IMG/VR virus record: IMGVR_UViG_3300023106_000017
Coordinates: 1 to 42,688 of that record
Strand: one strand, 5' to 3'
Source: a virus
DNA length: 42,688 nt
Numbering within the stretch: the stretch's first letter is position 1; the number at the start of each line of letters is the position of its first letter. The position numbers and the translations under genes were made by a program. Below are positions 7,045 through 11,946 of the stretch, in pieces. The notes below the pieces were generated by a model. The model was not told the DNA's origin. It worked only from the letters and a program-made list of their open reading frames with translations, and made no database searches.

Positions 7045-7602
7045 CTAGGCCGGCACCACGCCAAACGGGCAAGGCATTCCGGCCTGCTCCCGGCTAGCAT
7101 CCATCCACCCGCCCATTGGGTGCGCCGTGGCATAATTCATCTGCTTCAACCAGCCCTCCATTGTGAAGGTGTCGGGCAGCACATTGTTGCCGATGTTGCA
7201 TTGCAGCTGGTTTCGCGTGTCGGGGTTGGGGCCAAGCAGGCCGAACTGCAACGCCCGGTGCTCACCGGTTCGCATGAAGTAGTAGCAGTCGGCTACGGTC
7301 TGTGAGCGATTAACGCCGGCGTGGCAGTGCAGGTACACCCGCTGCCCCTGCTTCTCGGCTTCTCGCAAGATGTAGAGCGCCCCGTAAATGCTCGACAGGC
7401 ACAGCCCCCATGCTTCGCCCAGCGGGAACCAATGCGACTGCTTGCCCGCCGCTGCCAGTTGGGCAGCAATGCTTGGGGTGTATTCGTCGGACACATTTAC
7501 GAACACATCATAGGCCGCAAGCTCCCGGGTGGGGTCTAATTGATGCGGATTGGGGTAAGCGCCAACGCGCACCGAAGCGGCAAACCAATCTTTAAATTCC
7601 AT
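7045..7602 (-). CDS. Tyrosine/dual-specificity protein phosphatase
   Basis: The 185-residue product has the cysteine-phosphatase P-loop HCHAGVNRS (HCx5RS; Cys93 nucleophile, Arg99), preceded by the usual hydrophobic strand (VYLHC). Asp39 in VNVSDEYTP is a plausible general acid. This fold removes phosphate from Tyr, or Ser/Thr, in proteins; the substrate is unknown and could be a host signalling protein. It is the last gene of a four-gene minus-strand operon, 32 bp after the HTH gene, and its start codon lies 8 bp after a 22-bp repeat that also precedes the HTH gene. Such an enzyme in a temperate phage suggests a lysogenic-conversion (moron) function, which is inference. Confidence 0.85.
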   Translation of the reverse strand: MEFKDWFAASVRVGAYPNPHQLDPTRELAAYDVFVNVSDEYTPSIAAQLAAAGKQSHWFPLGEAWGLCLSSIYGALYILREAEKQGQRVYLHCHAGVNRSQTVADCYYFMRTGEHRALQFGLLGPNPDTRNQLQCNIGNNVLPDTFTMEGWLKQMNYATAHPMGGWMDASREQAGMPCPFGVVPA

Positions 7603-7610
7603 GTCTGTGC

Positions 7611-7632
7611 TGGTCTTACTGTATAGAGGAGG
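7611..7632. repeat. 22-bp direct repeat, copy A (before phosphatase gene)
   Basis: The minus strand reads CCTCCTCTATACAGTAAGAC and ends 8 bases before the ATG of the phosphatase gene. It is identical to 7934-7955, which lies 5 bases before the HTH gene. Regulatory or translation-start element, or the remnant of a duplication. Confidence 0.75.
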
Positions 7633-7933: not shown

Positions 7934-7955
7934 TGGTCTTACTGTATAGAGGAGG
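7934..7955. repeat. 22-bp direct repeat, copy B (before HTH gene)
   Basis: Identical to 7611-7632. Here it also encodes the last codons and stop of the zinc-ribbon gene, so it overlaps coding sequence. The shared position close upstream of two start codons suggests a control site for the HTH protein or a common initiation signal. Confidence 0.75.
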
Positions 7956-8118
7956 GAGAGGCGGGCGGCAGAACGACTGGCTTTGTTACGTCGTGCGTCC
8001 AATTGTCTTGGCAATACGGACAGGTCGGCGCGGCTGCATCCGTGGATATATACTGGCAGCGGTTGCAAGCAGGGAAAGTTTCACCTGGCTTGATGTGACT
8101 TGTGGGCGATTGCTCCAT
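7939..8118 (-). CDS. Small zinc-ribbon protein
   Basis: This 59-residue minus-strand frame runs from ATG at 8118 to TAA at 7939-7941. It has two CxxC knuckles (CNRC at ~18-21 and CPYC at ~33-36), as in small rubredoxin-like or zinc-ribbon proteins, and a Pro-rich C-terminus. It starts 2 bp after the upstream minus-strand gene ends and stops 10 bp before the HTH gene, so it fits the operon with no gaps. Its last codons fall inside the right copy of the 22-bp repeat (7934-7955). Function is unknown. Confidence 0.7.
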   Translation of the reverse strand: MEQSPTSHIKPGETFPACNRCQYISTDAAAPTCPYCQDNWTHDVTKPVVLPPASPSSIQ

Positions 8119-9386: not shown

Positions 9387-9407
9387 GCCTCTCCCGCAGC
9401 CAACGAA
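9387..9407. repeat. 21-bp direct repeat, left copy
   Basis: The sequence GCCTCTCCCGCAGCCAACGA(A) here recurs exactly at 9815-9835. The pair brackets the single gene at 9455-9799 with its promoter. This copy starts 8 bp after the cupin stop codon. It may be a footprint of gene insertion or a recombination site. Confidence 0.85.
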
Positions 9408-9454: not shown

Positions 9455-9799
9455 ATGAAAAACACTCAGCAAACCCCGCCAAAACCCACCGCCATGATGC
9501 GGATCGGCCATGTTAAAATCAATCATGTTGTACCAGCCCATATCCTGGCCGGGATTAATGCGGGCTACGATAAGACAATTTCCAAATGCCCCGTTGTTGG
9601 CCTAAAGGTGTTGTTTCACGAAAGCGGGGAGGCTTACTCGGTGGGCTTTCGGCTGAACGGCTACACGTTGGGCGGCAGCGGGGAAGGCGGGTTTGCCCCG
9701 GGCCCATTCATGCGCTTTTCACCGGAAGTGGTGGCCTACCTGAGCCATGTTGCTGACCAAGCACTGGCCATGGTTCAGCCCATTGTCACCACGCATTAA
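9455..9799 (+). CDS. Protein of unknown function, repeat-flanked single gene
   Basis: The 114-residue product has an alpha/beta-like body (HILAGINAGYDKT, VVGLKVLFHESGEAYSVGFRLNGYTLGGSGEGG) and a helical C-terminus (EVVAYLSHVADQALAMVQ). There is no recognised family. It has its own promoter, predicted to give a leaderless mRNA, and is bracketed by exact 21-bp direct repeats, suggesting independent arrival as a cassette. It is followed by a hairpin and an intrinsic terminator (9943-9979). Confidence 0.7.
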   Translation: MKNTQQTPPKPTAMMRIGHVKINHVVPAHILAGINAGYDKTISKCPVVGLKVLFHESGEAYSVGFRLNGYTLGGSGEGGFAPGPFMRFSPEVVAYLSHVADQALAMVQPIVTTH

Positions 9800-9814
9800 A
9801 GAATGAGCCCTGTC

Positions 9815-9835
9815 GCCTCTCCCGCAGCCAACGAA
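9815..9835. repeat. 21-bp direct repeat, right copy
   Basis: This is an exact copy of 9387-9407, beginning 15 bp after the stop codon of the bracketed gene. Unlike the left copy, its 3' half also forms the left arm of the hairpin at 9824-9863. Confidence 0.85.
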
Positions 9836-9863
9836 ACAACCCGTATTCGGGTGTGTTGGCTGC
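9824..9863 (+). other. Two-part hairpin downstream of the repeat-flanked gene
   Basis: GCAGCCAAC (9824-9832) pairs perfectly with GTTGGCTGC (9855-9863), and inside it ACCCG pairs with CGGGT around a TATT loop. There is no T run, so it is not a standard terminator; it could protect an mRNA 3' end or be a recombination or protein-binding site. Confidence 0.7.
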
Positions 9864-9942
9864 CGCAATGGGTGGGGGCGGGGTAGGTAGAGGTGGTTTC
9901 TCTTGGTTGTGGTATTGTCTGTGGAAGGATATAATACCCGGT

Positions 9943-9979
9943 AAAAAGCCTGTGCCTTAACTTGGTGCAGGCTTTTTTT
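9943..9979 (+). terminator. Intrinsic terminator
   Basis: AAAAAGCCTG (9943-9952) pairs with CAGGCTTTTT (9968-9977) and is followed by a T-rich tail, a textbook rho-independent terminator for the rightward transcript that ends after the gene at 9455-9799. Confidence 0.85.
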
Positions 9980-9989
9980 CGTATATTTG
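9962..9989 (+). promoter_or_regulatory. Candidate promoter of the structured RNA
   Basis: TATATTTG at 9982-9989 is a perfect Bacteroidota -7 box (TAnnTTTG). A TTG lies at 9962-9964, with a somewhat short 17-base spacer inside the terminator arm. Start of transcription would be near 9993. Confidence 0.5.
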
Positions 9990-9992
9990 AAT

Positions 9993-10418
9993 AAGGAATC
10001 GGATAGGGCGGCCATGCTTGCAAGTAGCAGGGTGCAGCGTTGGACAGACTGCTTAGAACCATCAGCCATCCCCAGCCTATGAATAGGCAAAGGGGGAAAG
10101 TAGGGGCCTTGTCGCCATCGATTCCACCCCATCACCACCTACTCTATCGTGAGGGTGGAAACAAGCTCGACCCTTCATCGCAAATTACAGGCTGTGGTGA
10201 TTGAAATGTGCATGCGCCATAAGCACAAGGGCCGACCATCTTGCCTGTAGCCCACCGAAGCCTTTCGTTCCACGTTAGCGATTCATGTAGGGGGCGCGGG
10301 CACCAGCGCTGGGGTTACAACCTACACGTCGAATCAAGCACGGAAGGTAGTCCTTGCGGTAAGACCAAAAGGCAACAAAAGCCCCGGCTCCTGTATCAGA
10401 GGCCGGGGCTTTTGGTTT
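9993..10418 (+). ncRNA. Candidate structured non-coding RNA, ~420 nt, family unknown
   Basis: This is the largest stretch without a credible protein gene. It has a -7 box just upstream and an intrinsic terminator at its end. Helices visible by eye, in order: CCCC/GGGG closing GCCTA-TGAA-TAGGC (~10069-10096); TTCCACCC with GGGTGGAA (~10122-10160); ACAGGC with GCCTGT (~10188-10248) enclosing TGTGC/GCACA; GATTC..TGTAGG with CCTACA..GAATC (~10280-10334); AAGG/CCTT (~10344-10355). I looked for RNase P, tmRNA, SRP and group I intron signatures and did not find them. A phage-encoded regulatory or packaging-related RNA is possible. Strand is set by the promoter and terminator; all of this is inferred from sequence alone. 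Confidence 0.5.
10377..10413. terminator. Strong intrinsic terminator, possibly bidirectional
   Basis: AAAAGCCCCGGC (10377-10388) pairs perfectly with GCCGGGGCTTTT (10402-10413), giving a 12-bp stem with A and T flanks on both sides. It ends the candidate RNA on the plus strand and also lies just past the stop of the leftward integrase gene, so it could serve both. Confidence 0.85.
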
Positions 10419-10422
10419 GCGC

Positions 10423-11646
10423 TTAGTCGTACACCGAATCCGCAACGTTATCGAGCTGCTGCGTCAGCATGGGCCGGACGTAGCGCTCGGTGGTGGATTC
10501 TTTCTTGTGGCCCAGCATGCCCTGCGCCGCCCGGATGGACCCGGTGGCTTCAACGGTGTGGGTGGCCAGCGAGTGCCGGGCCGTGTGGGAGTGCAGCCGG
10601 CCGGGCAGGTCGAGCAGCTGCGCGCAATCCTGCAGCCCGTGCCACACCAGGGTGGTTGCGGCCTTGCGGGCCTTAAACTTGGCTTGCACCGAAAGAGCAG
10701 CATAGTTGGCGGGCAACAGCGGGAACACCAGCCCGGGCTTGGGGCCGTAATGCGCCAGCACCTTCAGCAACTTGGGGTGCAGCTTCACGTCGTGCTCCCC
10801 GCCGCCTTTTTCGGCCCGGAACCGCGCCCGGCCGTTGGCAATCTGGCCCCAATCCAGCTCCAATACCGGGCCCAGGCGCGAGCCGTGCAGGTAGTACTGG
10901 CACAGGTAAATGTCCCGGGCCCACCGCGCCCGGCCGGGCACCAAGTCCAACGCCGCCAGCCGGGCCAACTCTTCCTTGCTGAGCACGTAGCGGGCGCGGC
11001 TCAGTTTCTTGCCAGCAGCGGGGGTGGCCACGGCAAACGGGTTGGCATCCTTCGGCCGGGCCACGGCAAACAGGGCCTGCAGGCGCGGCACGTAGCGAAC
11101 CGCCTGGGGCACGGCGTGGGCAAAGTCGCCCACCAGGTCGGCATCCAGCAGGGGCAGGGGCAGGGCCGGGCGGTTGAGCCAGGCCTTGAAGGCGCGGAGA
11201 GCGGTTTGGTCGGTGGCGTGGCTGTAGGGGTTCTTCCGGCTGGCCAGCGCGGCATCGAGCAACTTCAACGCATCCGGCACCGGCGCCGGCTTGGGCGGCA
11301 ATAGCGCGGCCCGCACCTGGCTGGCCGTCACCGAGGCCGCGCCCGGCAGTGGCTGGAGCGTGGAATTGAGCAGACGGGCCGACGCCTCGAACTTGTCGAG
11401 CACCTCGTTGAGCGCCCGCGTCACCTCGTCCTTGCGGCTCTTGGGAATCAGGCGCTTGGTGGCCTTGTCCCATTCCTGGGGAAGGCAGCGGATTCCGGGG
11501 CTGGCTTCGGCGCGGGTGCCGTGAATGGTGATGCGTAGGGACACGGGGACTTTGCCCGCGGCGTTGGCCTTGGCGTTGTTTATCCAAAATGTCAGGTCCA
11601 CGTGCTGCTGCGCGAGGTGGGCCGCCAACTGCGTAGCCGCAACCAT
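10423..11646 (-). CDS. int: Tyrosine-recombinase integrase
   Basis: The product is 407 residues from the ATG at 11646; an in-frame ATG at 11745 adds a 33-residue leader and is less likely. The N-terminus (VDLTFWINNAKANAAGKVPVS...IRCLPQEWD) matches the arm-DNA-binding domain of Bacteroidota integrases, followed by a SAM-like core-binding domain. The catalytic set is complete: Arg257 (HGSRLGPV), His354 and Arg357 (HTARH), His380 (LGHKKEST) and Tyr389 (ERYV). The enzyme should integrate and excise the phage at attP/attB. It is transcribed leftward, away from the repressor side. The 312 bp upstream contain repeats proposed as attP. A strong terminator follows the stop codon. Confidence 0.95.
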   Translation of the reverse strand: MVAATQLAAHLAQQHVDLTFWINNAKANAAGKVPVSLRITIHGTRAEASPGIRCLPQEWDKATKRLIPKSRKDEVTRALNEVLDKFEASARLLNSTLQPLPGAASVTASQVRAALLPPKPAPVPDALKLLDAALASRKNPYSHATDQTALRAFKAWLNRPALPLPLLDADLVGDFAHAVPQAVRYVPRLQALFAVARPKDANPFAVATPAAGKKLSRARYVLSKEELARLAALDLVPGRARWARDIYLCQYYLHGSRLGPVLELDWGQIANGRARFRAEKGGGEHDVKLHPKLLKVLAHYGPKPGLVFPLLPANYAALSVQAKFKARKAATTLVWHGLQDCAQLLDLPGRLHSHTARHSLATHTVEATGSIRAAQGMLGHKKESTTERYVRPMLTQQLDNVADSVYD

Positions 11647-11724
11647 AAGGCAGGAGCAACGCAATAATGCAGCCGTAATATATAAAGGAGGGAGCCGCAG
11701 CAAACGTTTGGGAAACCCCGTAGC

Positions 11725-11946
11725 AGGGGTAACCTCGTGGCTCAACGGCTCGCAGAGGCAGGGGAGGGGGTAACCGGGGCTACTGGGGCGGTTTTAGCCC
11801 CTGGCAGTGCCGCCTGACCGCTTTTAAATAGCGTAGCACAAAGGTACGGCTATTCTAAAATGTGGTCAGGCAGCAACCCGGTGGCGGTTTATTTAGTTCG
11901 GTGGGGGAGGGGGTAACCGAATCAAGACCGAAACAGGGTTTGAACT
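11725..11946. other. Candidate attP region with direct and inverted repeats
   Basis: This non-coding stretch between int and the repressor holds two exact 16-bp direct repeats (GGGGAGGGGGTAACCG at 11761-11776 and 11904-11919), a shorter GGGGTAACC at 11726-11734, and a long imperfect inverted repeat whose arms are 11809-11832 and 11849-11874 (shared core GCCTGACC, TTTTA, ATAGC). The minus strand at 11945-11925 (GTTCAAACCCTGTTTCGGTC) resembles the T-loop and 3' acceptor end of a tRNA. Direct repeats as arm sites and a tRNA-like core would fit an attachment site, but which part is the core is not settled. Confidence 0.4.

Follow-up and report, generated by a model that had tools for sequence, protein, structure and literature searches.

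A probable integrase-linked phage RNA gene with a DUF3800-VIII-type hairpin, a possible decoy for host DUF3800 nucleases

The window, i.e., the whole stretch of DNA analysed here, is a virus record of 42.7 kb from a phage of Bacteroidota type. An accessory gene (9455-9799) and a convergent integrase gene (10423-11745) flank a putative RNA unit, whose features are given below in the coordinates of the window.

9944-9979, plus strand: intrinsic terminator that ends the accessory-gene unit, directly 5' of the RNA gene (13-bp hairpin and T run, z -5.0)
9978-9989, plus strand: TTCGTATATTTG, which holds the Bacteroidota -7 box TAnnTTTG (9982-9989); the 12-mer is identical and in the same place in a sibling phage (L207) and a prophage (L204)
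9990-10418, plus strand: proposed non-coding RNA of about 425 nt, a presumably transcribed box-to-terminator unit without a conserved ORF
10070-10096, plus strand: small hairpin CCCC-GCCUA/UAGGC-GGGG (z -2.7)
10125-10164, plus strand: 40-nt block with a hairpin (CCACCC..GGGTGG), an RNA module or part of an attP; 100% identical in the sibling, with unalignable flanks
10239-10305, plus strand: DUF3800-VIII-type hairpin, a diverged relative of Rfam RF03075 (37.5 bits, covariation, conserved unpaired bases)
10376-10414, plus strand: terminator of the RNA gene, common to the convergent integrase gene and identical in the sibling
10423-11745, minus strand: tyrosine integrase with arm-binding and catalytic domains (Pfam Phage_integrase 4.7e-16, Arm-DNA-bind_5 3.4e-9), the convergent neighbour

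From the -7 box to the terminator the RNA spans 425 nt, and the size (about 420 nt) and coordinates proposed in an initial annotation of the locus were right. The -7 box and the terminator stem that it described are also there. The box is TATATTTG (9982-9989), the consensus TAnnTTTG having only 12 occurrences on both strands of the window, and its 12-mer context is kept in L207 and L204 although the RNA bodies cannot be aligned. The terminator hairpin (14+3 bp, -29 kcal/mol) has a z-score of -5.9 and was equalled by none of 200 shuffles. The interval 9800-10422 had been said to contain no credible protein gene, and a tblastn comparison of 9801-10425 (20 frames with 25 codons or more) with the sibling and two other relatives revealed no conserved ORF: apart from weak similarities (E 1e-3 to 1), it brought up only brief segments of identical DNA, most of which matched in more than one frame. 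The conserved -7 box, the terminator, the lack of conserved ORFs and a layout that recurs beside related integrases (see below) support a phage non-coding RNA gene; by these sequence features, 9990-10418 is likely a stand-alone gene of this kind in the interval between the lysis/accessory genes and the integrase.

Our search found no relatives of the 114-aa protein encoded upstream. A weak Rfam match to Thr_leader at 9944-9979 was rejected as a terminator look-alike, since the Thr_leader model itself has a terminator at its end. Short intergenic repeats, GCCTCTCCCGCAGCCAACGAA (9387-9407 and 9815-9835) and TGGTCTTACTGTATAGAGGAGG (7600-7632 and 7934-7961), are present in the sibling too and are possibly shared regulatory or recombination sites.

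The RNA as a whole (426 nt) folds with a z-score of -2.17, which is owed to the terminator. When the latter is left out (9993-10372), the z-score is -0.02 and 51 of 100 shuffles fold equally well, so the "at least five separate helices" of the initial annotation have no thermodynamic support. The pieces supported individually are the terminator, the segment 10239-10305 (by homology and covariation), the hairpin at 10112-10171 around the 40-nt block (z -2.6) and that at 10070-10096. In the remaining ~300 nt, comparison with relatives showed neither structure nor sequence to be conserved, except in the 40-nt block. In agreement with the reported lack of RNase P, tmRNA, SRP or intron signatures, none of these families matched at gathering thresholds, and neither ARAGORN nor RF00005 gave a tRNA or tmRNA match in the window RNA.

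The segment 10239-10305 aligns end to end (model 1-64) with the DUF3800-VIII family, RF03075, at 37.5 bits (E 3e-5 with relaxed thresholds; 5e-7 on the whole record). DUF3800 motifs were reportedly described by Weinberg et al. in 2017. The family has a gathering threshold of 40.2 bits, which the window copy fails and which the copies of the sibling (47.2 bits) and of another viral contig, L222 (51.1 bits), pass. By Rfam's rule the window copy is a non-member; to judge from its sequence, it is a diverged relative whose same-locus sibling passes the threshold. The next-best Rfam matches in the RNA region were terminators or chance similarities, and mir, asX2 and similar weak matches were rejected as such. 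The description of the RNA as unassigned has therefore to be given up for this hairpin, which matches a known family just below the cut-off, and stands for the remaining ~300 nt.

The hairpin has three stems: an outer one, an inner one in which unpaired GAA stands opposite AUGUA, and an apical one whose loop lies within GUNCCAC. All three are present in the window, the apical stem containing two U-U mismatches in the alignment. The 11 unpaired positions whose base is kept in 80% or more of 42 sequences (in GAA, the loop CC and the AUGUA strand) are all intact. Between the window and the sibling, two apical pairs have changed on both sides (U-A to C-G and C-G to A-U); at two other positions, U-U in the window corresponds to a pair in the sibling. 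The score below the Rfam cut-off and these mismatches suggest that the window copy may be decaying.

Covariation was analysed in 42 distinct hairpins, viral and bacterial. We counted 219 cells changed on both sides, against 92 +/- 8.5 in shuffles, and the covariation score was 0.512, against 0.209 +/- 0.013 for shuffled alignments and 0.12-0.27 for slid controls. Compensatory changes among homologues, a check named in the initial annotation, are thus found for this hairpin. Within the good pairs, G-U and A-C were observed 61 and 13 times (85 and 36 expected); the better tolerance of G-U points to an RNA of this, the transcribed, strand. We consider it very probable that the locus is an RNA gene containing a DUF3800-VIII-type domain. 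The earlier suggestion of a new phage RNA is supported for the gene, and fails for this one domain, which belongs to a described motif.

The hairpin recurs with the same neighbours in other phages. The sibling (L207/L208), found through its integrase, is 99.4% identical to the window in the integrase region at the DNA level and has the same 12-mer and terminator. From the -7 box to the terminator, the two phages can be aligned only in the 40-nt block (100% identity) and in the hairpin (78%). The contig L222 encodes an integrase with 50% identity and has the hairpin, a variant -7 box (TACATTTG) and a terminator, with the RNA on the integrase strand. A prophage of a Hymenobacteraceae genome (L204/L214; integrase 35% identical) has the same 12-mer, a hairpin of 36.4 bits and a terminator; its RNA is separated from the integrase by four tRNA genes (Pro, Gln, His, Leu). 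The window and these three loci thus have in common a TAnnTTTG box, a DUF3800-VIII-type hairpin, a terminator and a related integrase, with box-to-terminator lengths of 425 nt in the window and 496, 420 and 558 nt in the others. Once the hairpin and the 40-nt block are set aside, alignments between these RNAs score in the range of shuffles; one of twelve comparisons was borderline (L222 with L204, 1 of 60 shuffles as good). An apparent resemblance between the 40-nt block and L222 (18/26) was rejected, the 5' regions of the window and L222 being shuffle-like (10 of 60 as good). What recurs, as far as alignments can tell, is the layout and one domain rather than one 420-nt fold.

When loci were retrieved solely through the similarity of their integrases, three of 14 had the hairpin nearby; the background density is given by at least 17 matches in 204 Hymenobacteraceae genomes, roughly one per 60 Mb. 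Searches with blastn of the window, sibling and L204 RNAs against 50,697 phage and 72,556 plasmid records returned only short or unrelated matches, or none, and nearly all matches of a DNA search of the window RNA in 200 Hymenobacteraceae genomes were look-alike terminators. The related prophage and integrases suggest that the hosts are Hymenobacteraceae. Two loci with related integrases, L224 and L216, have another short RNA-like unit downstream that shares the 5' end of the L204 RNA (TATATTTGGGTAAGGTCGGCATC), and L216, L217 and L224 have GGACCTTTAGAACCGGCCGCGCCGGAA and a terminator with an apical ACGTACCACGT in common downstream of the integrase.

A pattern of conserved positions, CGAA-N7-GTNCCAC-N11-ATGTAGG, gave at least 46 viral loci. 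An earlier short pattern, CCGAANNCNNNCGTTCCACG, was discarded as too loose: nearly all its genome matches and most of its viral matches were chance-like. The scan of the 204 Hymenobacteraceae genomes gave at least 17 hairpins in 15 genomes. A DUF3800 gene adjoins the hairpin in 7 of the 17 matches found there, tail to tail, and at 4 of the 46 viral loci found; Pfam confirmed the family for five sampled proteins. The proteins encoded next to the hairpin form a subfamily of 280-300 aa, an example being the Hymenobacteraceae locus L194; phage loci with both RNA and gene are L034, L231, L257 and L260. This adjacency could reflect a shared mobile module. DUF3800 is encoded in 59 of the 204 genomes, and PF12686 (DUF3800) has no match in the whole 42.7-kb record. 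Of the hairpin-bearing viral records, 45 of 50 have no DUF3800, a count in which genes may be missed because many IMG/VR records are fragments. Hairpins without the gene also occur in hosts: orphan copies in Hymenobacteraceae are L192, L201, L202, L197-L200 and L205, of which L192, L197, L198 and L201 lie directly behind their own TAnnTTTG box with no DUF3800 within 1.5 kb, and L197, L198 and L205 have a chromosomal neighbour gene in common.

The DUF3800 partners match PADLOC PDC-M04A, which is a candidate defence family only. In a structural model of low confidence (pLDDT 58), the top PDB matches by Foldseek were RNases HII/HIII (E 1e-3 to 4e-2); we found no solved structure with a DUF3800-like sequence. 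Published work ascribes to DUF3800 an RNase H fold, an association with non-coding RNAs and a presence in CRISPR loci (PMC10910872, PMC12669027). In the literature we found neither a DUF3800-RNA contact nor a function for the DUF3800 RNA motifs.

Several viral hairpins are part of phage tRNA clusters or next to them, in each case on the strand of the tRNAs (L232, L233, L241, L245, L246, L250, L251, L254, L258, L265), and four of them (L245, L246, L250, L258) are preceded by a further similar domain of ~65 nt (GGCATGAGCGCTG..GCTGAAAYATCGTG..TCCGGC). Five of 34 distinct viral hairpins (~4 lineages) are within 500 nt of a tRNA, where random placement within these loci would give 2.2 (p 0.012). 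Compared with 31 control loci, i.e., those left of 35 "negatives" after dropping 4 that held real hairpin variants, the difference gives a Fisher p of 0.06. The association with tRNA clusters is no more than suggestive. In the sibling RNA, L207:1455-1504 (minus strand) resembles a tRNA that lacks the acceptor stem but has the D, anticodon and T arms (RF00005, 14.8 bits), and a perfect T-arm motif, GGTTCGAATCC, lies near this stretch. A similarity of the sibling to YrlA, with 21 bits for a cut-off of 69, was rejected. At L253:1104-1366, a skipping-rope RNA (RF02924, 50.5 bits) and a DUF3800-VIII hairpin (62.4 bits), both described motifs, share one phage interval, on the same strand within ~270 nt.

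Several explanations that differ in the role of the RNA, or do without one, have to be weighed. The interval could be a DNA element, an attachment site beside the integrase gene, with 10125-10164 as attP core and arm sites and RNA-like hairpins that are incidental. Full conservation of this block, amid unalignable flanks, between phages with 99.4% identical integrase DNA fits such a site, which leaves the -7 box, the terminator and the covarying hairpin unaccounted for; moreover, a 20-mer of the block occurs in 200 Hymenobacteraceae genomes at the level of chance (3 matches with 2 mismatches, ~3 estimated for random sequence). We regard this explanation as improbable, though the block may have an attP role in addition to the RNA, and the attP core may be shorter. 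Equally improbable is a cis-regulatory or antisense RNA for the convergent integrase gene or the choice between lysis and lysogeny: the convergence and the common terminator would suit it, but the RNA stops before the integrase coding sequence, lies on the integrase strand in L222, is separated from the gene by four tRNA genes in L204, and most hairpins have no related integrase nearby.

The least probable of the explanations is that the interval derives from a phage tRNA array, as a decayed cluster or a tRNA-like RNA, and that the RNA has no separate function. The T-arm-like motif and the anticodon/D-arm-like stretch of the sibling, the four tRNAs of L204 and the several viral hairpins within tRNA clusters argue for it. 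Yet the tRNA score of the sibling is just 14.8 bits for a cut-off of 29, the window has no tRNA signal, and box, hairpin and terminator are all retained. Rather unlikely, too, is that the RNA is a cofactor that loads or redirects a host DUF3800 nuclease for the phage (e.g., against competing phages) or serves in trans a DUF3800 gene that other elements carry. Both orientations of the hairpin are seen next to DUF3800 genes, as would fit the subunit of a ribonucleoprotein, and the phages L034, L231, L257 and L260 have both RNA and gene; against this stands the absence of the gene from 90% of the hairpin-bearing viral records.

The best explanation, in our opinion, is a phage RNA gene whose hairpin engages host DUF3800 nucleases as a decoy or antitoxin mimic, a reading that as a whole we hold with slightly less than even confidence. 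The phage would express a DUF3800-VIII-type hairpin without the DUF3800 protein, the hairpin would bind host DUF3800 nucleases, and the bound nucleases would be disarmed or mis-loaded; inhibition rather than activation, and a benefit to the phage, are presumed. That the RNA acts through DUF3800 proteins at all seems to us an even call; decoy or antitoxin mimicry, proposed by analogy, is a more tentative step. Molecular mimicry fits the orphan phage copies of a nuclease-associated RNA, in which the unpaired bases are kept while the stems drift. A bolder and rather doubtful extension is that the lysis-to-integrase interval is a cassette site for RNA-based counter-defence, in which one long RNA would carry several elements recognised by defence proteins. 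The DUF3800-VIII hairpin would be one bait, to which the hairpin of the 40-nt block and the sibling's tRNA-like module can perhaps be added, and the unalignable remainder of the RNA would reflect rapid bait turnover; the joining of skipping-rope and DUF3800-VIII motifs in L253 may be cited alongside. The orphan phage copies, the RNase HII-like, PADLOC-labelled partner and the copies in tRNA clusters together suggest a testable conflict between RNA and nuclease.

Compared with known large RNAs of phages or bacteria (GOLLD, ROOL, OLE), the window RNA is similar in kind and has some relatives near tRNAs, but it is shorter and has no conserved fold outside the hairpin; the Rfam models of GOLLD, ROOL, OLE and HEARO gave no match at gathering thresholds and none was listed up to E 10. 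The window hairpin has all the strongly conserved unpaired bases of DUF3800-VIII and differs from this family in its setting, a unit of ~425 nt with its own -7 box and terminator in a record without a DUF3800 gene. The locus is unlike type III (ToxIN-like) toxin-antitoxin systems, as 9780-10440 contains no tandem repeats of the antitoxin kind and no candidate toxin gene was found beside the RNA. Proven precedents for mimicry are the phage pseudo-ToxI RNAs, directed against ToxN (PMC3475682), and the RNA anti-CRISPRs (Racr), directed against Cas proteins (PMC10651486). With pseudo-ToxI we propose a functional analogy: in both cases a phage RNA looks like the one that partners a nuclease in the host, and the nuclease gene is absent, the window RNA differing in its lack of tandem repeats and having no known sequence relation. 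Racrs, like the proposed decoy, are solitary phage RNA units that mimic an RNA bound by a host immune protein, but they mimic CRISPR repeats, whereas the window element resembles DUF3800-VIII RNA. The DUF3800 finding suggests that RNA mimicry by phages may extend beyond CRISPR and ToxIN.
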